From IMG/VR virus record IMGVR_UViG_3300045975_000215, positions 1 through 45,223 of that record: a DNA stretch of 45,223 nt. The stretch is one strand, 5' to 3'. The notes under the pieces are model-generated. The model did no database searches, had not been told where the DNA came from, and saw only the letters and a program-made list of their open reading frames with translations. Of the stretch, positions 9,121 through 39,000 are shown in pieces (position 1 is the first letter of the stretch; every line of letters starts with the position of its first letter). The DNA comes from a virus. Made by a program: the position numbers and the translations under genes.

Positions 9121-9179
9121 CTGCCTGTGGCGCTGGAAGCGCTTCAGTCGCACGATCTCAACCGGATTCTAGCACCGAA

Positions 9180-9251
9180 TGGCCCCGCCGGGATTCGAAC
9201 CCGGACCTCGATCGTGCGACGAAAGTGCGCTGTCCATTACGCCACGGGGCC
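9180..9251 (-). tRNA. tRNA-like gene, tRNA-Arg-type body with irregular anticodon arm
   Basis: The minus strand folds as a tRNA: acceptor GGCCCCG/CGGGGCC (7 bp), D-arm GCGT/GCGC with A14 and GG at 18-19, and a perfect T-arm CCGGG-TTCGAAT-CCCGG with discriminator A. No CCA is encoded. The D-arm resembles bacterial tRNA-Arg. The anticodon arm is odd: with a standard 7-base loop GTCGCAC the stem has only three of five pairs (mismatches at 28:42 and 29:41), and the anticodon would be CGC, an Ala anticodon, although the Ala mark G3:U70 is missing. It may be a degenerate or recombined tRNA. It lies just left of attP. Confidence 0.6.
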
Positions 9252-9274
9252 ATGCTCGAATCATCAGACCTCGT

Positions 9275-9488: not shown

Positions 9489-10556
9489 CTAACGCCGCCG
9501 CCTCGCTGTGCGTGCCACTGTCCGAGCCTTGGCCCTCCAATTGACTCCCGCCGGCGCCGTCCCGGTTGGGGAGGAGTGCGAGTAACGGTCGGTCATCCGA
9601 CTCGTCTTGTGGCCGAGCTGGTCCTGCAGGACGCGCGGCCAGCCACCACGGCGCAGGAACTCCGACGCGAACGTGTGCCGAAGATCATGGAAACGGAGCA
9701 TCGGCATCCCGGCCTTCTCGCGAACGTGGTGCCAGAACTTGCGATACCGATCCTTCGGCAGCGATTTCCCAGCGAACGGCTCGTCTGACTCCCGTAGCAG
9801 CCGCGCGAGATCGCGGCCGTTCTCTTGTAGCAGTGTGAACGATCGGTCGGAGCCTCCCTTCAGGGCACGGATCCTGAGTACGCCCGTTGACGAATCGAAG
9901 TCTTGCCGTGCGATCTGGCAGAGTTCGCCGATGCGTGCGCCCGTCTCGAGGGCGAGCCGGAGCAGGAGATGCGCGCGGCGGTGCTCTGGTAGGGCGAGCG
10001 CACGACGAGCAGCGACCTCCAGAAGCTTCCGAACCTCCGCCTCATTCAGGAACCGCGGCTGGCGTGGTGCTCGCCCCGAAGGCGGTACCCAGTCCCGCAA
10101 GCGATACTCCGACAACCCGGTCTCGGCCTTCCATCGGTGTGCCTGGAGCAGCGCATGCCGGAGAATGTTCGCCTCGGCCCTGACGGTCGAGACGGCCTTC
10201 CCGGCGCGGAGGCGGGCCACGGCATAGCCGTCAAGCTCTGCCGGCCCGATGGACTCGATCGGGGTCTGTCTCCCGAGACGTTCGAGAATGCGCTGGAGCC
10301 TGTCGCGGCGCCATGTCGCAGACCGTGGCTTCAGTTCGTCCATTCGGTCAAGGTAGACATCTGATAGCTCGCCGAGCGTCCACACCGACTTAGCCTTCCG
10401 GTCGAGAAAGCGCCCCTCGGCAACCTCCGTCTCAATCTTTGCCAGGATGCGGGCCGCGACCTTCGCCGACTTCGTGCGTGCCGAGAAGCGGATCTCCTGC
10501 CCGTCAACGTACGCCGCGATCCAGTAGACCTTGCCGCGGAGGTACTTCCGCGCCAC
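9489..10556 (-). CDS. int: Tyrosine site-specific integrase
   Basis: A 355-residue tyrosine recombinase. The C-terminal catalytic domain has the full set of residues: Arg208 ('ETGARIGEL'), Lys233, His290 and Arg293 ('HDLRHTF'), His316 ('LGHKT') and Tyr325 ('TDRYSH') as the nucleophile. Residues 1-55 form an arm-binding-type N-terminal segment and about 60-150 a SAM-like core-binding domain. It integrates and excises the prophage, most likely at a host tRNA-Val gene, whose 3' half lies just past its stop codon. The start is a GTG two bases after the stop of the upstream small gene, with GGGGAAG as ribosome site. Confidence 0.95.
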   Translation of the reverse strand: MARKYLRGKVYWIAAYVDGQEIRFSARTKSAKVAARILAKIETEVAEGRFLDRKAKSVWTLGELSDVYLDRMDELKPRSATWRRDRLQRILERLGRQTPIESIGPAELDGYAVARLRAGKAVSTVRAEANILRHALLQAHRWKAETGLSEYRLRDWVPPSGRAPRQPRFLNEAEVRKLLEVAARRALALPEHRRAHLLLRLALETGARIGELCQIARQDFDSSTGVLRIRALKGGSDRSFTLLQENGRDLARLLRESDEPFAGKSLPKDRYRKFWHHVREKAGMPMLRFHDLRHTFASEFLRRGGWPRVLQDQLGHKTSRMTDRYSHSSPTGTAPAGVNWRAKARTVARTARRRR

Positions 10557-22768: not shown

Positions 22769-23410
22769 ATGCCGACAGCAACTCAAGCGGCGTTACCAAA
22801 GCCAAAGCGCATCCGACACCGCACCGAGCGCGATCGCACGGACATCGGGACAGGTCTGGTCATCGGGCGCCTTCGCCATCCGAAAGATCTCGAGGCGCGC
22901 GGCCGCGGTCGAATGCTGCCAGCGTTCGAAGAAGTCGTGCGTCGCAGCGGACAGACCGGCCCGCTGTCGGGGCTGGCGAGCATTCCGGAAGGAAACATGC
23001 GCTTCTACCTGCTCGGTGTGTCGCACAAAGGCACGCCGGCGGTTGTCGGCGCGATGTGTTTCGGTGTGCATCCATCGACGGTGTCGAGCTGGCTCACGGA
23101 GGGCCGCGATCCTGAATGCCCGGATGCGCTGAAGCGGGAATTCGCGCGGCGCACGGACCAGGCGGTGGCATACGGGCGCGTCGAAGCGGAGCTCGAGGTC
23201 GGGCGCACCGATCCACTCTCGGCGTTGAAGTGGGGCCCGCTCGGCCGCACGACGAAGGACGTTCCAGGGTGGAGCGACGAGCGCCGGATCATGTTGACTG
23301 ACGGCGAAGGCGGTCCGCCGGTGTTCCGACTTCGGCTCGAGGTCGGTGACGGCTACGCGACGAAGCCGGAGCTGCCGCCGCGCGACGTGACAGACGAGGG
23401 CGCGGAATGA
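22769..23410 (+). CDS. Possible small terminase subunit (HTH protein)
   Basis: A 213-residue protein. A helix-turn-helix is visible at about residues 88-112 ('AVVGAMCFGVHPSTVSSWL'). After an Ala/Glu-rich helical stretch comes 'DPLSALKWGPLGRTTKDVPGWSDE', resembling the 'WL..GP.R..PGW' region of phage small terminase-like proteins. Small terminases bind the packaging site and hand DNA to the large subunit. The large subunit gene is about 9 kb away, after the surface-protein region, which is unusual. No strong ribosome site precedes the ATG. Confidence 0.5.
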   Translation: MPTATQAALPKPKRIRHRTERDRTDIGTGLVIGRLRHPKDLEARGRGRMLPAFEEVVRRSGQTGPLSGLASIPEGNMRFYLLGVSHKGTPAVVGAMCFGVHPSTVSSWLTEGRDPECPDALKREFARRTDQAVAYGRVEAELEVGRTDPLSALKWGPLGRTTKDVPGWSDERRIMLTDGEGGPPVFRLRLEVGDGYATKPELPPRDVTDEGAE

Positions 23411-24423
23411 CACCGCGAACGAAACTCGCCCTGATCGGGGCCGGCCTCGCCGCCGCGACGGCGACGATCCTCTACGTCCTCGTGCCCGAAGGGCAGCAGC
23501 CGACGATCTCCGGCTCGACGCCAGCCAACGTCGTCCACAACCTCAACTACGGTCAGCCGTGTCCGCCCGCCGGAAGCGCCGCGTGCGTCTACTCGGGCGA
23601 GTTCATCGTCCACACGCAAAGCTACGGCCTCTACGCGATCAACACGACGAAGGCGACGTGGGCGATTAACGCGAGCGGCGGGATGCAGACCGGCGTCATT
23701 CACAAGTTGCCCAACCAGCAGTCCGCCTGGATCGCGAACTGCAACGGGGACTTCTACCAGTCGTCGCAGTATGTCGTCGCCTCGGCTGGCGCGGCGAAGT
23801 GGGCGGTCAGCACGATCCCGAACGTGGCGCAGTCTGGCGGCTGTACGTCGGCGTCCGGTCTCGGCACGGACGGCGCACCGGCCACTGCGGTCTACTCGCT
23901 TTCAAGCGGCGGCAACCTCGCGGAGCGCGGCTGGCTGGTCCCCGGCGGCTACGGCGGGATCATCGAGGGCGACACGCTGTACCTCGACACGGGCGATGGG
24001 ATGTGGCTGCCGGTTGACCTGAACAGCTGCAACCCGAGCTGCGCCGCGCAGCCGAAGGTCGGGACACTTCCGGCGCACACCAAGCAGCTCGACATCAACG
24101 GCTACACCTACACGATCGCCGGAATTGACCAAACGCATTTCACGGCGACGCGCCAAGGCGGAGCGCTGCCGCCGACGCCGACCGCAGCTGCGCCGCCCGT
24201 GACGGTGCCGCCGGCGAGCTCGCACCCCTACGCCGACTACATCGAGGGGATCTACCAGGACGGGATCACCGGCGGCTGCGGGGCGAACGTCTTCTGTCCG
24301 GACAACCCGCTGACTCGAGGGCAGGCCGCGGTGTGGATCTGGCGGGCGAAGCACGGGGCACAGGCGCCGCCCAAGTGCGTGCCGGGGCGGTTCACGGACG
24401 TGCCTTGTCTGTCGACGCCATGA
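23407..24423 (+). CDS. Exported or membrane-anchored protein with C-terminal SLH domain
   Basis: A 338-residue protein. The N-terminus has Arg/Lys then a hydrophobic helix (residues about 7-26), a signal peptide or anchor. The middle (30-245) is beta-rich, with repeated 'NTTKATW...'-like strands and four or more Cys pairs. After a Thr/Pro/Ala linker comes an S-layer homology domain (about 275-333): 'HPYADYIEGIYQDGITGGC' then 'FCPDNPLTRGQAAVWI' and 'RFTDVP'. SLH domains bind cell-wall polysaccharide in S-layer bacteria. It could be a lysogen surface protein or a virion part gripping the wall. It starts in a four-base overlap with the HTH gene. Confidence 0.75.
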   Translation: MTPRTKLALIGAGLAAATATILYVLVPEGQQPTISGSTPANVVHNLNYGQPCPPAGSAACVYSGEFIVHTQSYGLYAINTTKATWAINASGGMQTGVIHKLPNQQSAWIANCNGDFYQSSQYVVASAGAAKWAVSTIPNVAQSGGCTSASGLGTDGAPATAVYSLSSGGNLAERGWLVPGGYGGIIEGDTLYLDTGDGMWLPVDLNSCNPSCAAQPKVGTLPAHTKQLDINGYTYTIAGIDQTHFTATRQGGALPPTPTAAAPPVTVPPASSHPYADYIEGIYQDGITGGCGANVFCPDNPLTRGQAAVWIWRAKHGAQAPPKCVPGRFTDVPCLSTP

Positions 24424-24436
24424 AGGAGGCGAAACG

Positions 24437-24916
24437 ATGAAACGCTGGCTGCTGGCTCTTACCCTGCTTCTGGCGGCGATTCCATGCGTCCGTGGTCAGA
24501 CGCCGACGCCGACGCCGGTACCCGACGAGCTGGACAAGGCGCAGATCTCCTGCAACTGGGTCACCGCTGCGGCGATCACCGCATCGACCGCCGAGAGCTG
24601 GGCGGCCGAGGCCACGGCGCCATGCCGGACCATCATCACCGACGGCGTCAAGCTGGTCTGCGCGACGATTCAGGCGGGCAGCGCAACGACGACGTCCACG
24701 GTGATCCTCGAGGTCAAGGGTTGCAAGCTGTGCGACTGGGTGGCGTACCCGCCGGTGAATCAGGCGCCGATCACCGACATCAGCTGCACGACGACGGGGA
24801 CGCGGACGAGCTGCTCGCGGACGTTCTCGGTCTCGGGCATCTACTCGGCGCGATGGCATCCGCTGACGCTCTCAAGCGGGACGCTGCTCGGACTGATTCG
24901 GGCGGCGACGCCATGA
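24437..24916 (+). CDS. Secreted protein, unknown function
   Basis: A 159-residue protein with a clear Sec signal ('MKRWLLALTLLLAAIPCVRG', cleavage likely near residue 20), then a Thr-Pro repeat and a beta-rich mature domain with several Cys. A GGAGG site lies 11 bases before the ATG. An exported protein is unusual in a structural region of a phage. No family recognised. It overlaps the next gene by four bases. Confidence 0.6.
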   Translation: MKRWLLALTLLLAAIPCVRGQTPTPTPVPDELDKAQISCNWVTAAAITASTAESWAAEATAPCRTIITDGVKLVCATIQAGSATTTSTVILEVKGCKLCDWVAYPPVNQAPITDISCTTTGTRTSCSRTFSVSGIYSARWHPLTLSSGTLLGLIRAATP

Positions 24917-26451
24917 CCAGGTCGCGCTTCTCCTGGCCGGTCTTCTGGGCGACGATCGGCGTCGGCCTGATGTTGAAGGCCGCGTGCGCGAAGGCGCAGG
25001 ACATAGTCGAGATTCCGTACGCGATTCAGGAGATCAATCTGACGATCCCGGCGACCGTTCCCACGGTGAATACGTTCCGGCTGACCACGATGCCGTCGAT
25101 CACCAGCAATCCGGTCGGCGGAGCGACGACGGGCGACGTGGACATCACTCTTGCCTGGACGACCCCGACCGACGACTTCGCGCTGGTCGGCAGCGGGACG
25201 GACTTCGAGTCGAAGGCGTTGCCGAATTGTCCCGGCGCGAACGACGCCCTGTACTACCTGACAGCGACGAACGCCTTCGGTTGCCGCGCCATCTCCGTCA
25301 CGGGAACCTCGACGCTCGGCGGCGACACGCTCTGGGCGGCGAAGGGCGACTCGGTTTGGGGGACAGCCAACGACACGGCGCAGATCGAGACGGCTGGCGC
25401 CAACGGGTCGATGTGCTGCAAGTACGATTCGGCGCAGACGCGCGGCGTCATCAAGGTGACTGCGGCGACGACGGCGGAGATCAGCGACGTCACCGTGGGC
25501 AGCGCGGAGAGCGCGGGGACGGCGACGGCGACGACGTATGCGCCGCCGGACCACAAGCACCAGCTCGTTCAGTCGACCAACAAACTCCTGGGCCGCACGA
25601 CGGCCGCGACGGGTCTGACCGAGGAGATCGGGGTCGGCGCGGGCCTGACCTTTTCGGCGCTGTCGCTCGGACGTGCCGCGTTGACTGGCGATGTGACGGC
25701 CTCAGCCGACTCCAACACGACGACGATTGCGAACGACGCGGTGACCTACGCGAAGCTCCAGAACGTCGCTGGTCAGTCGGTGGTCGGCAAGGCCGGGTCC
25801 GGTTCGGGTGACGCCGCGGCCATCACGGCGGGCGCGGCAGGGGATTTGCTCGGGATGCCGAGCAGCACGGTTGGCTTCAACGCGCCGAGCGCCTACAACA
25901 TCCCGACTGTTCTCTGCCGTCAAGCCGGGACGAGCGCGGTCAGCTCCGCGTCCGAAGTCGTCGTCGTAGCTTGTCAGATCCCGGCGCTCGGAACGACCGG
26001 CCTCTTTCACGTCATTCACCACGGCTACATGATCTACAACAACAACGCCGCCGACACGCTGCGGCTGAAGTGGAAGTACGGCTGCACCAACGGGACGGAC
26101 TCGACCGGCTGCACGAACGTGTGGGATTCCGGCGCGCAGGTTCCGTTCGGCTCAATCAGCGGCTCGGCGATGGCCTGGAACTTCGACTTCTACGTCTACG
26201 CGGACGGCTCTACGTCGGCGCAGATCGCGGGCGGAAACTACTGCGGCGGCTTCCGGGGCGGAACGATCACGAACTCGATCGGGTCGATCATCGCGAGCGG
26301 CAACATGGAATGCAAGGCGCTGATCCAGACGGGCGCGCTCGCGATCGATGCCAGCTCGGCGACGTACTTTCAATTCACGGCGCAATGGTCGGCGTCGGCG
26401 TCGACCAACGTGTACCACGCATCGCGGGGCTACGTCGAGGTTCTGCCTTGA
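24913..26451 (+). CDS. Tail-fibre-like protein with N-terminal signal peptide
   Basis: A 512-residue protein. Residues 1-28 look like a Sec signal ('[16 protein letters not shown]', then 'AKAQ' cleavage). The middle carries tail-fibre-type repeats: '[20 protein letters not shown]' followed by '[20 protein letters not shown]', a pattern seen in many phage fibres. The C-terminal third is a beta-rich domain with aromatic strands. Fibre repeats combined with a signal peptide are contradictory for an ordinary tail fibre, which is assembled in the cytoplasm. It may be an exported adhesin, or the N-terminal helix may anchor it to the virion. Confidence 0.7.
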
Positions 26452-28376
26452 GCCAATCGGGTCGCCGCCTTGCGCTCGCCGCCGCGACCGTTGGTGGGGT
26501 GCTCGCTGCGGTCTGGCTCGCGATTCCTGGTCGCGCTGCCACGACGTGGTACGTGTCCAACACCGACAAAGGCAACTGCACGACCGGATACTCGACTGCG
26601 TGCCAGTTCTCAGAGCTGTGGATGAAGACGATTGCCCCCGGCGACGTCGTCAACGTTGAGGCCGGGGTCTATCAGGGGGCGAACAATATGTTTGTCCCGC
26701 CCAGTACGGTCAGCGGGCAGGCGGGCAACACGATCACCTTCAACGCCCAGGTGCCGAACTCCAACGGGGTCTACGGCACGACGATCATCGATGGGGAGGG
26801 CGTCCGCCAGCCCGCGAGCATCTCGGGGAACGCCTATCTTGTCGTCAACGGACTGAACTTCGTTCGGGCGAGGGAGGTCGCCTGCGGCAGCGTCTCGAGC
26901 AATGCGACGTTCACCAACGCCGCCCACAACAACATCCTGAACAACGTGGGCATGGCGGTGGGGACGTTCTACGGAAATTCCGGCATCCTCACCCAGTACG
27001 GCAGCGCATACGACAACGAGTGCAACGACTGCGCGATCATCGGCGTTGGTCGCAAGGGGCCGTCATCGCAGGGAACCGGGGCCGCGACGACACACGATCT
27101 GATCACCCGCCGCCTCGTCACGATCTACGACGGCAACATTCACGTCGGCCCGAAGATGGCGATCTCGATCGCGTACAACTCGGACAGCGACAAGCACATC
27201 GATTCGCTGAACTTCTGGCGTAACCGCTCGTTGCCGTCGAGCTACACGCTGAAGGGTCACAACAGCTCGGGCGTGGACTACGGCGAGTATACGCGGGCGA
27301 CCGCGTCCTTCTGCCCATCCGGGACCTGCCAGAACGCGACGCCGTGCGGTACCGCGTACTCCTCCTACGCCCTCGACCAACCCTACGGTGTGATGGCGTC
27401 GGACACCTCCGCGTACAAGGGTCGGATCTACGGCGGGATCAACCTGATTCGCTTCGGTGATCGGACGGGCGGCATCGGGCAGTTCATCTACATGCCGCCG
27501 GGAAACAACGACAACATTCCGGGCGACCACGTCGGCCCGCTGGACGTGATCATTCAGGACGTGACGAACGTCTCGGGTCCAGGCGCGCCGACGATCAAGA
27601 CAGTCAATCTGGGGAACAACTCGACGTCGAATCCCGGCAACTTGATCGTCAGCCGCATCACGCAAATCAACCCGTCGGCGTCCGCCGACATCATCGGCTC
27701 GGACTGGACGATGGACGGCAACGGCGACGGGACGACCGGGGATGGGCCGGTCCGGCTCGCCGATGCTTCGACCTACCGCTACGACGCTTCGACCGGAGCG
27801 TCGAAGGCGAACAACTGCAAGCGGAAGAACGACGATGGGACGCTCTCCGCCACAGGCATATGGCCCTACCTGATGGACGCCGCGATCTTCGGCCTGATGA
27901 CGGACTACGGGATCCCCGAGCCGATCCACGTCAACGACCAGGTCTATGCGATTCTCGGCCAGCCGCCCGCCCCGTGCTTCTGGACGGGCGGCGGTACGAC
28001 GCCGACGAACACGCACACGTTCACTGCAACGTTGACGTTCACGCAGACTTTCACGCCGACCAGAACTTTCACTTCGTCTGCCACGCCGACCGCGACGCAC
28101 ACGCCAACCGCGACCAGCTCGCACACGGCGACGCGGACCCCGACCGGGACGCTGACCCCGTCGGCCACGGTGACTCAGACCTTCACGGCCACCCGGACGC
28201 CGACCAATACCTTCACGCCGACGCGCACCGGCACGCCGTCTGCCGACATGGCGACGTACCGTCACGACTTCTGCGTGTCGGTCAGCGGGAATCTGCGCCG
28301 CCTCGCGCAACCCGACCTGCGCGAAGAGCCGAAGAACGTCGGCGCGCACTACCACCCGTGCGGGGGCGGACGGTGA
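26448..28376 (+). CDS. Exported right-handed beta-helix protein with Thr/Pro repeat tract
   Basis: A 642-residue protein starting at TTG in an overlap with the previous stop. A signal peptide spans residues 1-31 (Arg-Arg, a hydrophobic run, then GRAA). The next part ('[12 protein letters not shown]', '[20 protein letters not shown]') is the start pattern of pectate-lyase-like parallel beta-helices, with rungs to about residue 450. Residues about 518-600 are a Thr/Pro repeat tract (TxTPT units), followed by a Cys-containing C-terminal cap. Such proteins bind or cut polysaccharides. Exported proteins with TP repeats are common in some environmental bacteria, so host origin is possible. Confidence 0.7.
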
Positions 28377-28591
28377 GCAGCGAGTACGCTCGGCTGAAGT
28401 TCGTCGCGACGACGGACGTCACCGCCAACGCATGGCGGGTGCTGGTCGTCGTGCCGGACGGGACGGAGTACGTGCTGCCGGTCGCGGCCGTCTCGCTTTC
28501 GGCGGACGCGGCGGAAGGCGGCCCGCCGATCCTATCGGTCGACGTTCCGGCGCCGATCATCGTGGTCGACACGCCGAGGGTGATTCGATGA
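28373..28591 (+). CDS. Small beta-rich protein, unknown function
   Basis: A 72-residue protein starting at a GTG overlapping the previous stop. Strongly beta: '[20 protein letters not shown]' reads as paired strands, and the C-terminus is Pro/Val-rich. It may be a small structural or fibre-linked protein. No family recognised. Confidence 0.5.
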
Positions 28592-28617: not shown

Positions 28618-29028
28618 ATGTCCGCGATGTCCGACTACCTGGAGGTGGAGATTCGGAAGCACGTCTTCCGCACCGGCACGTTCACGAAGCCGTCGGCGCT
28701 GTACGTCGCGCTGTACACGGCAGCGCCGTCGGACTCGGGCGGCGGCACGGAAGTCACGGGCGGCAGCTACGCGCGCGTGCAGCGCGATCCGCTCGACGCG
28801 AACTGGACCGCCGCATCGGCGACGGACGGGAAGACCGATAACGCGGCGGCGATCACGTTTCCCGCGCCAACTGGGAACTGGGGTCAGGTGACGCACTTCG
28901 GGATCTTCGACGCATCGACCAGCGGAAATCTCCTGTTCCACGGCGCGCTGCAAACGCCGAAGACGGTCAACGCTTCAGATCCGGCTCCGGAATTTGCGAT
29001 CGGCGCGCTGGCGGTGACGTTCGCGTGA
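28618..29028 (+). CDS. Phage structural protein, tail-fibre-linked family
   Basis: A 136-residue protein in a form seen across many phages: 'SDYLEVEIRKHVFRTGTF', 'PSALYVALYTAAPSD', 'GTEVTGGSYARVQ' and 'WGQVTHFGIFDA', ending in 'LLFHGAL'. Members lie with tail-fibre genes and are treated as virion structural proteins of unknown exact role. AAGGAGG precedes the ATG at 28618; the ATG at 28611 is too close to it. Confidence 0.7.
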   Translation: MSAMSDYLEVEIRKHVFRTGTFTKPSALYVALYTAAPSDSGGGTEVTGGSYARVQRDPLDANWTAASATDGKTDNAAAITFPAPTGNWGQVTHFGIFDASTSGNLLFHGALQTPKTVNASDPAPEFAIGALAVTFA

Positions 29029-29813
29029 CGGATCTCCCCATCTGGCTGCTGACCGAGCTGACGGCGCCCGCGCTCGAGGATCTGCTGGTCGGGGTGGACG
29101 CTCCGGGCGGCTCGGCGGCGGACAAGAAGCTCTCGATCGCGAATCTGATCACCGCGCTGCTGATCAACGACGTCGCGGTTCAGGTGAAGACGGTCGGCAG
29201 CGGCACGTATACGCCGACCGCCGGAATGAAGGCGGTCCTCGCTATAGCGGTCGGCGCGGGCGGGGGCGGTGACGCGGGGCTCGCGACCGACTCGGCCGGC
29301 GGCGGTGGCGGTGGAGGAGGAACCGTGATCCGGCTGCTGACCGCGGCGCAGATCGGGGCATCGAAAGCCTATGTCGTCGGTTCGCACGGGCTCGGACGGA
29401 CCTCCGCGCAGGCGTCTACGGCTGGCGGGGCGACGACGCTGGACGCGGCGGGGGCGCTGATGAATGCGGGCGGGGGCTCGCAGGGTTCCGCTGGCGCGCA
29501 GGCGGGGGCGCTCGGCGCGCAGGCCGCCGGTGGCGCGGGCGGGACGGCGGCGAACGGCGACCTGAACATGCCGGGGTTCCCCGGTCAACGAGGCGTGACC
29601 TACAGCGGCACGGCGGGAAACGGCGGCAGAGGCGGCTCGTCCAGGTTCGGCTTCGGCGGCGAGCGTCCGGCGAGCAACGTTGCCGGGGTGGTCGGCGGTA
29701 ACTACGGCGGCGGAGGCAGCGGAGGCCACGCCTCCTCCACTACGGATCGCAACGGGGCGAACGGGGCCGATGGCGTGCTCTGGCTGCTGGAGTTTCTGGC
29801 GGTTGCGGCGTAG
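29025..29813 (+). CDS. Glycine-rich tail fibre/adhesin protein, paralogue 1
   Basis: A 262-residue protein. An N-terminal helical region (1-45) with 'GSAADKKLSIANLI' resembles the tip-binding start of phage fibres. The remainder is dominated by Gly runs and Gly-Gly-X motifs ('GAGGGG', 'GNGGRGG', 'GGNYGGGG'), as in polyglycine-helix receptor-binding domains of phage adhesins. It ends in 'GADGVLWLLEF'. A paralogue with the same layout lies at 30240-31025. It starts at GTG overlapping the previous stop. Confidence 0.7.
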   Translation: MTDLPIWLLTELTAPALEDLLVGVDAPGGSAADKKLSIANLITALLINDVAVQVKTVGSGTYTPTAGMKAVLAIAVGAGGGGDAGLATDSAGGGGGGGGTVIRLLTAAQIGASKAYVVGSHGLGRTSAQASTAGGATTLDAAGALMNAGGGSQGSAGAQAGALGAQAAGGAGGTAANGDLNMPGFPGQRGVTYSGTAGNGGRGGSSRFGFGGERPASNVAGVVGGNYGGGGSGGHASSTTDRNGANGADGVLWLLEFLAVAA

Positions 29814-29827
29814 ATGTGGGAGTTCTG

Positions 29828-30274
29828 ATGCCAGCGAAGGGTAGTGGCGGATATGACGCCGCGCTGTACCAGTCCCCGATCTATCGGGTCTGGTCGAACA
29901 TGAAGAACCGCTGCTACAACCGCCGCCAGCAGATCGACTTCCAGCGTTACGGCGGGCGCGGCATTACCGTCTGCCACAAATGGCAGAAATTCTCAGGCTT
30001 CTTCGAGGACATGGCCGACACCTACCGCAACGGCCTGACGCTGGAGAGGATCGACAACAACTCCGGGTACTCAAAGCAGAATTGTCGATGGGCTTCACGC
30101 ATTGAGCAGGCCAACAACCGTCGGAGCAATCGGTCTTTCGTGATCGGCGGCGTGACGCGAACGATGGCGGAGTGGATCAGGCTGTCCAGCCTGAAGCCCA
30201 GCACGGTGCGGCAACGGTTCTACGGCCGGAATTGGCCTATTGAGCGTGCGCTCGGCGAGGTGTGCCATCGTTGA
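29828..30274 (+). CDS. Homing endonuclease-like protein (phage HNH/AP2-type)
   Basis: A 148-residue protein following a well-known phage pattern: 'YRVWSNMKNRCYN', 'YGGRGITVCHKWQKFSGFF', 'GLTLERIDNNSGYSKQNCRW', 'EQANNRRSNR', then a short DNA-binding tail ('MAEWIRLSSLKPSTVRQRF'). Such proteins are commonly annotated as HNH endonucleases. It lies between two fibre paralogues and overlaps the second one's start. It is less GC-rich than its neighbours and ends 35 bases into the second paralogue's frame. The ATG at 29828 was chosen over the GTG at 29816. Confidence 0.75.
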   Translation: MPAKGSGGYDAALYQSPIYRVWSNMKNRCYNRRQQIDFQRYGGRGITVCHKWQKFSGFFEDMADTYRNGLTLERIDNNSGYSKQNCRWASRIEQANNRRSNRSFVIGGVTRTMAEWIRLSSLKPSTVRQRFYGRNWPIERALGEVCHR

Positions 30275-31025
30275 CACGAAGATCACCGGCTTTACCGCCC
30301 TGACCACTCCGACCACGGACGACCTGCTCGCCATCGTGGACGATCCCTCGGGTACACCCGTCACGAAGAAGCTCGCGCTCTCGGATCTGATCTCCACACT
30401 TCTGCTCTCAAACGTCACGATCCAGACGCTCACCTCCAGCTCCGGCACCTACACGCCGACGACCGGAATGAAGAAGTGCCTTGTGATCGCAGTCGGTGGA
30501 GGCGGTGGAGGGGGCGGGGCGACGCTCGCGGACGAATGCGGCGGCGGGGGCGGTGGAGGATCGACCGTCATCCGGCTGTTCACGGCGGCGGAGATTTCGG
30601 GCCACGACGGCTACGCGGTCGGCGCTTCGGTCAACGGCGACACCAACGGCAACGACACGACCTTCTCCAGCTCGCCGACGCTGCTGACGGCGGGCGGCGG
30701 CACGGCGGGCGGGAAGTCGGGCAACACCACCACCCTCGGCGCGCAGGCGGGATCTGGTAATCCGGGTGCTGCGACGGGCGGTGATCTGAACATCCCGGGC
30801 GAAGCGGGCGGGCGCGGCATCATGTACTCGACCACCGCATCCATCGGCGGATACGGCGGTCGCTCGACGTTTGGCGCGGGCGGGTCCGAGGGCAACAGTT
30901 CCAACGGCGGCAACGGTGGAAACTACGGCGGCGGTGGCGGCGGAGCATCGAGCAACGATGACACCGACAGAACCGGCGGCACCGGGGCGGCAGGCGTCAT
31001 CTGGATTTTGGAGTGGATTGCTTGA
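30240..31025 (+). CDS. Glycine-rich tail fibre/adhesin protein, paralogue 2
   Basis: A 261-residue protein with the same layout as paralogue 1: 'TTDDLLAIVDD' and 'KKLALSDLISTLL', then 'TYTPTTGMKKCLVIAVGGG', Gly-rich motifs, and a C-terminal 'GAAGVIWILEW'. The start is doubtful: TTG at 30240 or GTG at 30246 are the only in-frame options before the homologous region, and neither has a ribosome site. Where paralogue 1 has its GTG start, this gene has GTT at 30270. Insertion of the endonuclease gene may have replaced the true start. Confidence 0.65.
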   Translation: MSVRSARCAIVDTKITGFTALTTPTTDDLLAIVDDPSGTPVTKKLALSDLISTLLLSNVTIQTLTSSSGTYTPTTGMKKCLVIAVGGGGGGGGATLADECGGGGGGGSTVIRLFTAAEISGHDGYAVGASVNGDTNGNDTTFSSSPTLLTAGGGTAGGKSGNTTTLGAQAGSGNPGAATGGDLNIPGEAGGRGIMYSTTASIGGYGGRSTFGAGGSEGNSSNGGNGGNYGGGGGGASSNDDTDRTGGTGAAGVIWILEWIA

Positions 31026-31035
31026 TGAGCTTCTC

Positions 31036-32166
31036 ATGAGCGTCAAGATCCTGCTCGAAGATGGCAGCGGAGCGATCCTCCAGGAGGACGGCTCCTACCT
31101 GCTCCACTCGGAGGAGGCGGACACTTCGGTTGCGGCATCGGTCACGGGCGCGGCGACGGTCAGCGCGGCGCTGACGACGGCGATCGCGCTGGTGGGCTCG
31201 CTCGCGGCCGCGGCGACCTTGTCTGCCGCCTTGACCACGGCCATTCCGCTCGCGGCAGCGGTCCCGGCGTCGGCTACCGTCGCGGCGGATCTGACCACGG
31301 CGATACCGCTCGCCGCATCGGTGTCCGGGTCCGCGACGGTCGCGGCGGACCTGACGACCGAGATCCAGATGGCGGCGGCGGTCGATGGGACCGCGACGGT
31401 CGAAGGCGAGCTGACGAACGAGGTGGCGCGGTTCGTCGCCAGCGTCACGGGCTCGGCGACGGTTGCGGGCGATCTGACCACGGCGATTCCATTGGCGGCG
31501 TCGATCGCCGCCTCGGCGGAAGTCACGGGCGCGGAGCTGACGACGGCGATTCCGCTGGCCTCCTCGGTCAGCGCGGCTGCCTCGACCGTCGGGGACCTCA
31601 GCACGGCGATTCCCCTGGCTGCTTCCACCGCCGGGGCGGCAACCGCCACCGCCGACCTCTCGACCGCAATCCGCTTCGCTGCGACCCCGACCGGGACCGC
31701 GACGGCGGACGGCGACCTGACCACGGCCATTCGGCTCGAAGCCAGCGTCGTCGGGACGGCCACGGCCGAGGCCGAGTTCGCGGGCGGGGCCGCGCAACTG
31801 CGGGCCGATGTCGCATCGACCGCCACGGCAACCGCCGATCTTTCGACCGCCATCGCACTCGCGAGCGCAATACAGGGGACCGCCACCACAACGGCAGACC
31901 TCTCCACCCAGATCGCGCTCGCGGGTGGGCTGGCGGCGACGGCGACCGCGACGGCGGACCTGATGGTCGAAGCGCCGGAGCTCGAGATCCCCGGCGGGCG
32001 GGCGATCGGGCCGGTGCGACCGAATCGTGCCGTGGCGTTCCCGTCGGAGATTCGGGCCGCCGGACAGAGTCGGCCGGACCGTGCCGAAGCGTTCCCGTCA
32101 ATGCTCCGCTCCATTGGGCCGGACAGGCCGAACGTCGCCACGGGACCAGCGAGGCCGAACCGATGA
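31036..32166 (+). CDS. Repeat protein with about 14 copies of a 20-residue unit (fibre-like)
   Basis: A 376-residue protein. Residues 1-30 form a short beta start ('VKILLEDGSGAILQEDGSYL'). Then about 14 tandem 20-residue units follow the pattern [A/S]-T-V-x-x-[D/E]-L-[T/S]-T-[A/E]-I-[P/A]-L-A-A-S-V-x-[G/A]. The period suggests a beta-solenoid or a long alternating fibre shaft. The C-terminus is a Pro/Arg-rich tail with three rough repeats of 'RPNRAxAFPS'. It is probably a shaft for the adhesins nearby. I know no family for it. The ATG at 31036 follows the previous stop by ten bases. Confidence 0.65.
   Translation: MSVKILLEDGSGAILQEDGSYLLHSEEADTSVAASVTGAATVSAALTTAIALVGSLAAAATLSAALTTAIPLAAAVPASATVAADLTTAIPLAASVSGSATVAADLTTEIQMAAAVDGTATVEGELTNEVARFVASVTGSATVAGDLTTAIPLAASIAASAEVTGAELTTAIPLASSVSAAASTVGDLSTAIPLAASTAGAATATADLSTAIRFAATPTGTATADGDLTTAIRLEASVVGTATAEAEFAGGAAQLRADVASTATATADLSTAIALASAIQGTATTTADLSTQIALAGGLAATATATADLMVEAPELEIPGGRAIGPVRPNRAVAFPSEIRAAGQSRPDRAEAFPSMLRSIGPDRPNVATGPARPNR
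31126..31974 (+). repeat. In-frame tandem repeats, 60-bp period
   Basis: About 14 units of 60 bp, diverged in sequence, encode the 20-residue repeats of the protein above. The shared core is the Leu-Thr/Ser-Thr-Ala-Ile stretch. Units are not identical, so they are old enough to have drifted, but conserved at the protein level. Confidence 0.8.
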
Positions 32167-35683: not shown

Positions 35684-35815
35684 CTAGATCTTACCGCCGA
35701 GCCACGCCAGCAGAAGCGAGAGTAGAAGGCTCCGGATCGGAACGCCCTCTTTTGCGGCCTTCACCTTCACGCGGCGCCAGAAGTCCGGGTCGATGTCGCG
35801 AAGCAGGTAGGTCAC
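35684..35815 (-). CDS. Tiny ribbon-helix-helix protein of the portal/MuF moron
   Basis: A 43-residue protein: strand 'TYLLRDIDPD', helix 'FWRRVKVKAAKEG', turn, and helix 'IRSLLLSLLLAWLGG', an Arc-type RHH. Its GTG start overlaps the stop of the gene before it (GTGA). As the second gene of a two-gene minus-strand unit with a palindrome over the -10, it is the natural autoregulator. It could also be an antitoxin. Confidence 0.6.
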   Translation of the reverse strand: MTYLLRDIDPDFWRRVKVKAAKEGVPIRSLLLSLLLAWLGGKI

Positions 35816-36102
35816 AGCTCCGCTCCCGGCGGCTCGACGCCCTTCGCCAGATGGATCGCCATCGTCTTGGAGATCTCCACGGCGCCGTTGTCAGCCCGGA
35901 AGTCGCAGTATGCGCAGGCGTCTTCGAGGAAACTCTTCTTGCCACTATCGGGCCACAGTACCTCGACGCGAGCGTGCGGATGTTCCCCGCCTTCGGGATC
36001 GGGCGCGGGCTTGCCGGTCTTGGGGTTGGTGTAGTGATCTGGCACCAACCACACCCTGTCGATCAGAACCACCTTGCCACCAAACGCCGTGTAGATAGCC
36101 AT
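35812..36102 (-). CDS. Moron protein, unknown function
   Basis: A 96-residue protein transcribed against the head genes from its own strong promoter, with AGGAGGT six bases before the ATG. It is predicted beta-rich at the start ('YTAFGGKVVLIDRVWLV') then mixed, with a Cys pair ('ACAYCDF') and Pro-rich loops. It pairs with an RHH gene. This layout fits a lysogeny-expressed moron (exclusion or host-benefit) or a toxin-antitoxin-like pair. No family recognised. Confidence 0.65.
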   Translation of the reverse strand: MAIYTAFGGKVVLIDRVWLVPDHYTNPKTGKPAPDPEGGEHPHARVEVLWPDSGKKSFLEDACAYCDFRADNGAVEISKTMAIHLAKGVEPPGAEL

Positions 36103-38004: not shown

Positions 38005-38493
38005 ATGGCTGCGCTCAGCGCTCCTCGGCCGATCACGATGTTGGGCGAGGACACGGTCCCGCCGATCCGTGCCGCGGGAGTCTTGACGAACAAAGTCGTC
38101 TACCACGGCGCGATGGTGGGCATCTCCAGCAGCTACATCGCCCCGGCAACGACTGCGATCCGACCGATCGGTGTGGTCGATCTCGAGATGTGGAACGACC
38201 TAGCATCGAACGGTCAGGCCACTGGCGCGACGATTCCGACTCCAGGCTACAAGATCGACACGACGGGCATCTCCTCCGGTGTGCGCAAGTGCGTGGTCCG
38301 CGGCGGCGTCTTCCTCATGAACAACAAGAGCGGGGATCTCGTTACGGCCGCGCACATCGGCGGTCCCGTGAGCGTAGAGGATGACCAGACCGTGCGTGCC
38401 ACTGCTGCGGGAAGCGTGATCGCCGGCATTCTGCAGGGCTTCAACGACGCGGGATTGCCTCTGGTGCTTATCCAGGACAACGCGCTCGCGTAA
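38005..38493 (+). CDS. Head decoration-like protein, copy 1
   Basis: A 162-residue protein beginning four bases after the protease stop. Beta-rich, with 'PRPITMLGEDTVPPIRAAGV' and ending 'AGLPLVLIQDNALA'. Location between protease/scaffold and capsid fits a decoration or cement protein. A same-length paralogue follows immediately. Confidence 0.7.
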   Translation: MAALSAPRPITMLGEDTVPPIRAAGVLTNKVVYHGAMVGISSSYIAPATTAIRPIGVVDLEMWNDLASNGQATGATIPTPGYKIDTTGISSGVRKCVVRGGVFLMNNKSGDLVTAAHIGGPVSVEDDQTVRATAAGSVIAGILQGFNDAGLPLVLIQDNALA

Positions 38494-38511: not shown

Positions 38512-39000
38512 ATGGCACTTTCAGCACCTCGGCCCATCGTCATGTTGGGAGAGGGTACGGTTCCACCGCTGCGGAAGGCCGGGGTGGCCGCAGACGCGAT
38601 CATTTTCCACGGCGCTGCCGTCGGCCCGGACGCGAACGGTTACATGGCGCCGGCATCGACGACGTTGCGGCCGCTCGGCGTAGCCGATCTCGAGATGTTC
38701 GCCGATCAGGCAGCGAGCGGGCAGTCTGTCGGTGCGACTCTGCTGACTCCCGGCTACAAGGTGGACAACACGGGCGGCGCGGACGGAGCGCGGAGCATCG
38801 TGGTGCGCTGCGGCGTCTTCGCGATGAAGAACAAGGTCGGCGACGAGGTCACGGCGGCGTTGATCGGCGCCCCTTGCTATGTCGAGGATGACGAAACCGT
38901 CCGCGCGACCTCGACCGATTCGGTTGTTGCCGGGATCGTCCATGGTTTCACCGATGCGGGTCTTCCGCTCGTGCTCATTCAGGACAACGCACTGGCCTAA
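38512..39000 (+). CDS. Head decoration-like protein, copy 2
   Basis: A 162-residue paralogue of the previous gene, sharing start ('SAPRPI.MLGE.TVPP.R.AGV') and end ('GLPLVLIQDNALA') and about half its residues. A tandem duplication with later divergence. Both copies keep full length and a good ribosome site (a G-rich GGGAGGG tract upstream), so both are probably used. Confidence 0.7.
   Translation: MALSAPRPIVMLGEGTVPPLRKAGVAADAIIFHGAAVGPDANGYMAPASTTLRPLGVADLEMFADQAASGQSVGATLLTPGYKVDNTGGADGARSIVVRCGVFAMKNKVGDEVTAALIGAPCYVEDDETVRATSTDSVVAGIVHGFTDAGLPLVLIQDNALA

Follow-up and report, generated by a model that had tools for sequence, protein, structure and literature searches.

Within the virion gene region of the window (the whole stretch of DNA analysed, which is an entire IMG/VR record of 45,223 bases), four consecutive genes are predicted to encode proteins with export signals. 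They and their neighbours are as follows.

22769-23410, plus strand: upstream gene, sharing 4 nt with the SLH gene; a TerS candidate by eye only
23407-24423, plus strand: SLH protein, 338 aa, with a predicted N-terminal signal anchor, a 230-aa body and an SLH domain; 10 Cys
24437-24916, plus strand: small secreted protein, 159 aa, with a predicted cleavable signal MKRWLLALTLLLAAIPCVRG; mature part with 7 Cys (5%)
24913-26451, plus strand: fibre-like protein, 512 aa, with a predicted cleavable signal (..ACAKA), a DUF5907-type fibre repeat and a C-terminal domain
26448-28376, plus strand: fourth protein, 642 aa, TTG start, with a predicted signal, a 12-Cys body and a Thr/Pro-rich linker near the C-terminus
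28373-28591, plus strand: downstream gene, 72 aa, sharing 4 nt with the fourth gene; no signal
28618-31025, plus strand: canonical signal-less fibre region (PF23140, E 1e-46; PF21722 and tail-fibre PHROGs)

The four reading frames described in the sequence-only reading are present, and their coupling holds. Overlaps of 4 nt occur at 23407 (with the gene ending at 23410), 24913, 26448 (where the TTG start overlaps the upstream TGA) and 28373, and the single gap, of 13 nt, precedes 24437, the start of which has the ribosome-binding site AAGGAGG ahead of it. The TerS suggested for the upstream gene gained no HMM support, as no PHROG or Pfam match and only a weak HTH-like match were obtained. A search for a sigma-70-like promoter for the block found none, and the host's promoter type may differ; terminator-like sites at the block were no more frequent than by chance. 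The fibre region comprises a gp80-like fibre gene (28618-29028) and glycine-rich tail-fibre genes (29025-29813 and 30246-31025), all lacking a signal by our scorer. By eye, an HNH-like ORF (29828-30274) sits between the two glycine-rich paralogs, while the same region of a near relative (L083, 865-1368) carries a LAGLIDADG-like ORF instead, which suggests that homing endonucleases are at work on this locus.

The genome was taken as complete because of the identical 127-bp ends of the record and the tape-measure gene region that runs across them. Recognised genes include those for the large terminase, portal, protease, major head protein, neck, tape measure, a J-like protein and fibres. A tyrosine integrase gene (9489-10556, phrog_1 match) adjoins a tRNA-Ala(CGC) gene on the minus strand (9179-9252), and the phage is therefore temperate; it is a temperate siphovirus with a complete genome. 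The attachment site probably lies within the tRNA-Ala gene and could point to the host. Contaminating host DNA was ruled out as the source of the block, given a complete phage with identical ends and a block that overlaps both flanking genes by 4 nt. Elsewhere in the genome, a 376-aa protein (31036-32166) consists of repeated Ala/Thr-rich units (approximately SVTGxATVxADLTTAIPLAA), and two small ORFs lie on the minus strand between the portal and the next head gene (35684-36102). The smaller of these looks like a ribbon-helix-helix antitoxin by eye, and near-relative strains have no alignable stretch exactly there. Ahead of the major head protein lie two adjacent look-alike genes (38005-38493 and 38512-39000), the first of which matches the virion structural family phrog_1731, so the pair looks like a duplicated structural gene. 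A scan for relatives using the large terminase returned two close strains and one weak match. A tblastn search of INPHARED cultured phages gave no match for the SLH, fibre-like or fourth protein, PDB sequence searches gave nothing meaningful, and a genome scan for relatives of the fibre-like protein found the shared repeat only, in scattered bacteria, and pinpointed no host.

The SLH protein has one complete SLH domain at residues 271-308 (PF00395, E 2.7e-6, 27.7 bits against a curated cut-off of 20.8), and a second repeat appears by eye to begin and then stop at the C-terminus. SLH repeats usually come in sets of three, and the protein falls short of this with one full stretch only. Its start is more likely an uncleaved anchor than a cleaved signal, because the hydrophobic run of about 20 residues ends in PEGQQP without a good cleavage site. 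The small secreted protein matched no family in Pfam, PHROG or NCBIfam. In the fibre-like protein, the repeat at approximately 206-314 resembles PF19264 (E 4e-5, 24.1 bits, just below the cut-off of 27) and was matched in 361 viral-contig stretches; no family was identified for the C-terminal domain (330-512). The fourth gene has GAGG upstream of its TTG start at 26448, and the alternative GTG start at 26499 would remove the signal. Its product had been read as a beta-helix protein, which was not borne out: no Pfam family was found, its PHROG match was weak and confined to the Thr/Pro-rich part (516-604), and its single-sequence model (pLDDT 32) was too poor to compare. AlphaFold2 models from single sequences reached pLDDT 43 for the small protein and 32 for the fourth and were not usable. 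Pfam and NCBIfam searches found no enzyme domain in the block proteins, and three of the four could be assigned to no receptor-binding or enzyme family.

Export signals were scored with a home-made signal-peptide scorer with a pass mark of 6, which was reached by 13/13 known E. coli signals and at 10/963 internal Met positions. The four block proteins scored, in gene order, 6.5 (SLH), 7.4 (small), 6.9 (fibre-like) and 7.3 (fourth), while 0/36 other window genes reached 6, in agreement with the earlier claim that each begins with a signal peptide or anchor. Each starts with a positively charged n-region followed by a hydrophobic run, and three of the four look cleavable, showing n-, h- and c-regions and acceptable residues at -3 and -1. 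Lipoproteins were rejected, as inspection by eye showed no lipobox in any of the three cleavable signals. Furthermore, Cys makes up 39/1543 residues (2.5%) of the predicted mature proteins versus 35/6586 (0.53%) in 23 virion-region genes (p=7e-11). This test makes no use of the signals, so the enrichment supports export independently and fits disulphide-bonded exported proteins; it is strong in the window and uneven in other contigs, with p=0.09 in a per-gene test.

Comparison with the near relative L086, which covers three of the block genes (the fibre-like gene in part only), indicates that these three are under purifying selection, with dN/dS values of 0.05 (SLH gene), 0.12 (small protein gene) and 0.24. 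Changes in the signal regions (M1V at the start, I15V, R3K, I15V and K27R) are conservative or a start-codon swap, and the signal of the fibre-like protein is conserved. Across the stretch aligned with L086 (18471-25346), 18.8-23.2 kb is almost free of differences, and the number of differences in 300 bp, which is 0-1 upstream, climbs sharply to 20-30 within 24.2-25.0 kb (≤10%). As divergence is concentrated in the block, the block is a fast-evolving or exchanged module.

We then considered comparable blocks in other phages, for which the sequence-only reading had called. Two scans yielded 95 non-redundant fibre-repeat ORFs in other viral contigs, of which 11 carry a predicted signal peptide and 84 do not, and tandem signal-bearing sets do recur. 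Among neighbours up to two genes away, signals were found on 16/41 beside signal-bearing fibres versus 5/267 beside signal-less ones (p=7e-12). Virion genes flank the signal-bearing sets in about half of the contigs: in L047 three signal-bearing genes lie between portal and protease, in L060 three follow the portal, in L041 one lies between tape measure and J, in L160 four come directly behind baseplate genes, in L126 two follow a head-closure gene, and the set of L135 follows a tail protein. No recognised virion gene was confirmed beside the sets of L050, L080, L133, L141 and L157. Additional signal-bearing cases, in L166, L167 and L182, came from another scan. In L080 the second protein carries a signal, as does its relative in L103 (81% identity), and the same body occurs without a signal in L104, L105 and Microcystis phage Mae-JY24 (43-54% identity), with a different N-terminal extension in front in two of these three. 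Thus one protein body is used both with and without a predicted signal in different phages. Taken together, the signals, their preservation from strain to strain, the Cys content and the occurrence of such sets in unrelated phages support export well, and the four block proteins are very probably Sec-exported.

Signals, gene chaining, Cys enrichment, purifying selection and tandem recurrence can be read directly from the sequence. Because canonical signal-less fibres are also encoded, the exported fibre-like proteins appear to be additional to them. The SLH domain, a known envelope-binding module, suggests an envelope location and the DUF5907-type repeat a fibre, and together with the signal-less fibres this favours a non-virion binding coat. 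Our tentative interpretation, to which we give not quite an even chance, is a late Sec-exported fibre-like cassette that would coat the producing cell and its debris. The four genes would be expressed late, together with the virion genes, and their products would cross the inner membrane and undergo disulphide folding in the periplasm or outside. The SLH protein would remain anchored in the envelope, and the other three would be displayed on it, be the cell dying or lysogenic, or released, massively at lysis, forming a binding coat on producer cell and debris rather than parts of the virion. Fibre-type and Cys-rich modules might then occupy surface receptors or glycans, and such masking would spare other phages and the phage's own progeny from loss by adsorption to the producer. 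Translocation itself, late timing and surface retention are what we further infer, and masking of receptors or glycans, taken alone, is more doubtful. No promoter for expression in the lysogen was found, and if expression is late only, superinfection exclusion would gain little time. Among the functions proposed earlier, export is supported and the SLH and fibre modules favour binding or coating, while matrix degradation lacks direct support, there being no enzyme domain; recoating, dispersal, matrix degradation and an extracellular structure cannot be told apart from sequence.

The main rivals to a binding coat are adhesins of the lysogen and virion fibres matured in the periplasm. In the former, lysogenic conversion would equip the lysogen for attachment, aggregation or biofilm, and the host would benefit rather than phages being blocked. 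The phage is temperate, with its phrog_1 integrase beside tRNA-Ala, bacterial genomes encode their own secreted fibre-repeat proteins (Flavobacteriales L090 and Betaproteobacteria L094), the comparable set in L133 contains YadA-head repeats, and lambda Lom is expressed in lysogeny (PMC12309495). Nevertheless, 4-nt overlaps chain the block to the virion-region genes that flank it, and the search for a sigma-70-like promoter of its own found none; we consider such adhesins unlikely. Alternatively, disulphide-bonded fibres might be exported, oxidised and joined to released particles at lysis, as the fibre-type modules, the high Cys content, the fibre-slot positions seen in some contigs (in L041 between tape measure and J, in L160 directly behind the baseplate genes) and the occurrence of the same bodies without signals in other phages would allow. 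Yet the window already has signal-less fibres, an envelope-anchored SLH protein fits poorly, and we know of no precedent in tailed phages, which together make this distinctly unlikely.

It is improbable that the hydrophobic starts are simply membrane or virion anchors of cytoplasmic-facing or virion-bound proteins. The start of the SLH protein has no clear cleavage site and the scorer is home-made, but three of the four have the n-, h- and c-regions and acceptable -3/-1 residues of cleavable signals, signals recur on tandem neighbours across phages, and Cys is enriched. Captured bacterial cargo with no lasting phage role would agree with the similar secreted proteins encoded by bacteria and with the concentration of strain divergence in the block (from 0-1 to 20-30 per 300 bp, 24.2-25.0 kb); it is rendered highly improbable by dN/dS well under 1 for all three genes measured and by comparable architecture across many unrelated phages.

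Fibres of tailed phages are treated as virion parts made in the cytoplasm. Tandem Sec-exported fibre-like cassettes could, with some reserve, represent a widespread unrecognised layer of tailed phages, either a second, non-virion fibre-like set outside the infected cell or fibres matured in the periplasm, with signals gained or lost on the same bodies. If approximately one in ten members of a common fibre class is exported in tandem sets, annotation by fibre domain misplaces many proteins, and if export is true, phages have further means of altering the surface of infected or lysogenic cells. Similar sets in many unrelated viruses suggest an overlooked viral habit of changing the exterior of infected cells, and bodies with and without signals in different phages offer a direct test.

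Among known systems, the prophage endolysin LysBT1 has an SLH domain that binds cells (PMC12285257). It shares with the block SLH protein a domain able to bind the cell surface, but LysBT1 is an amidase lysin, whereas the block protein has no enzyme domain, an N-terminal anchor and one full SLH repeat. DUF5907-type (PF19264) phage tail fibres share the repeat of the fibre-like protein, and fibres also neighbour the block; most are signal-less (84/95), whereas the fibre-like protein of the window has a predicted signal (score 6.9) and 2% Cys. Bacterial secreted fibre-repeat proteins such as that of L090 have, as in the block, a signal followed by phage-fibre-type modules, but they lie on bacterial contigs and the block genes inside a complete phage genome. 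The nearest precedent is lambda Lom, which has a signal peptide and is encoded between the tail-spike and tail-fibre genes, so that the premise that tail regions lack Sec proteins was too absolute (PMC12309495). Both Lom and the block are phage-encoded signal-peptide proteins among tail or virion genes. However, Lom is a single outer-membrane beta-barrel, a family without Pfam, PHROG or NCBIfam match among the block proteins, whereas the four genes of the block are chained and encode SLH, fibre-type and Cys-rich products. Our searches of the open-licence literature turned up neither tandem exported fibre-like cassettes in phages nor phage fibres with signal peptides. Single exported proteins in tail regions, such as Lom, and bacterial secreted fibre-repeat proteins were already known.
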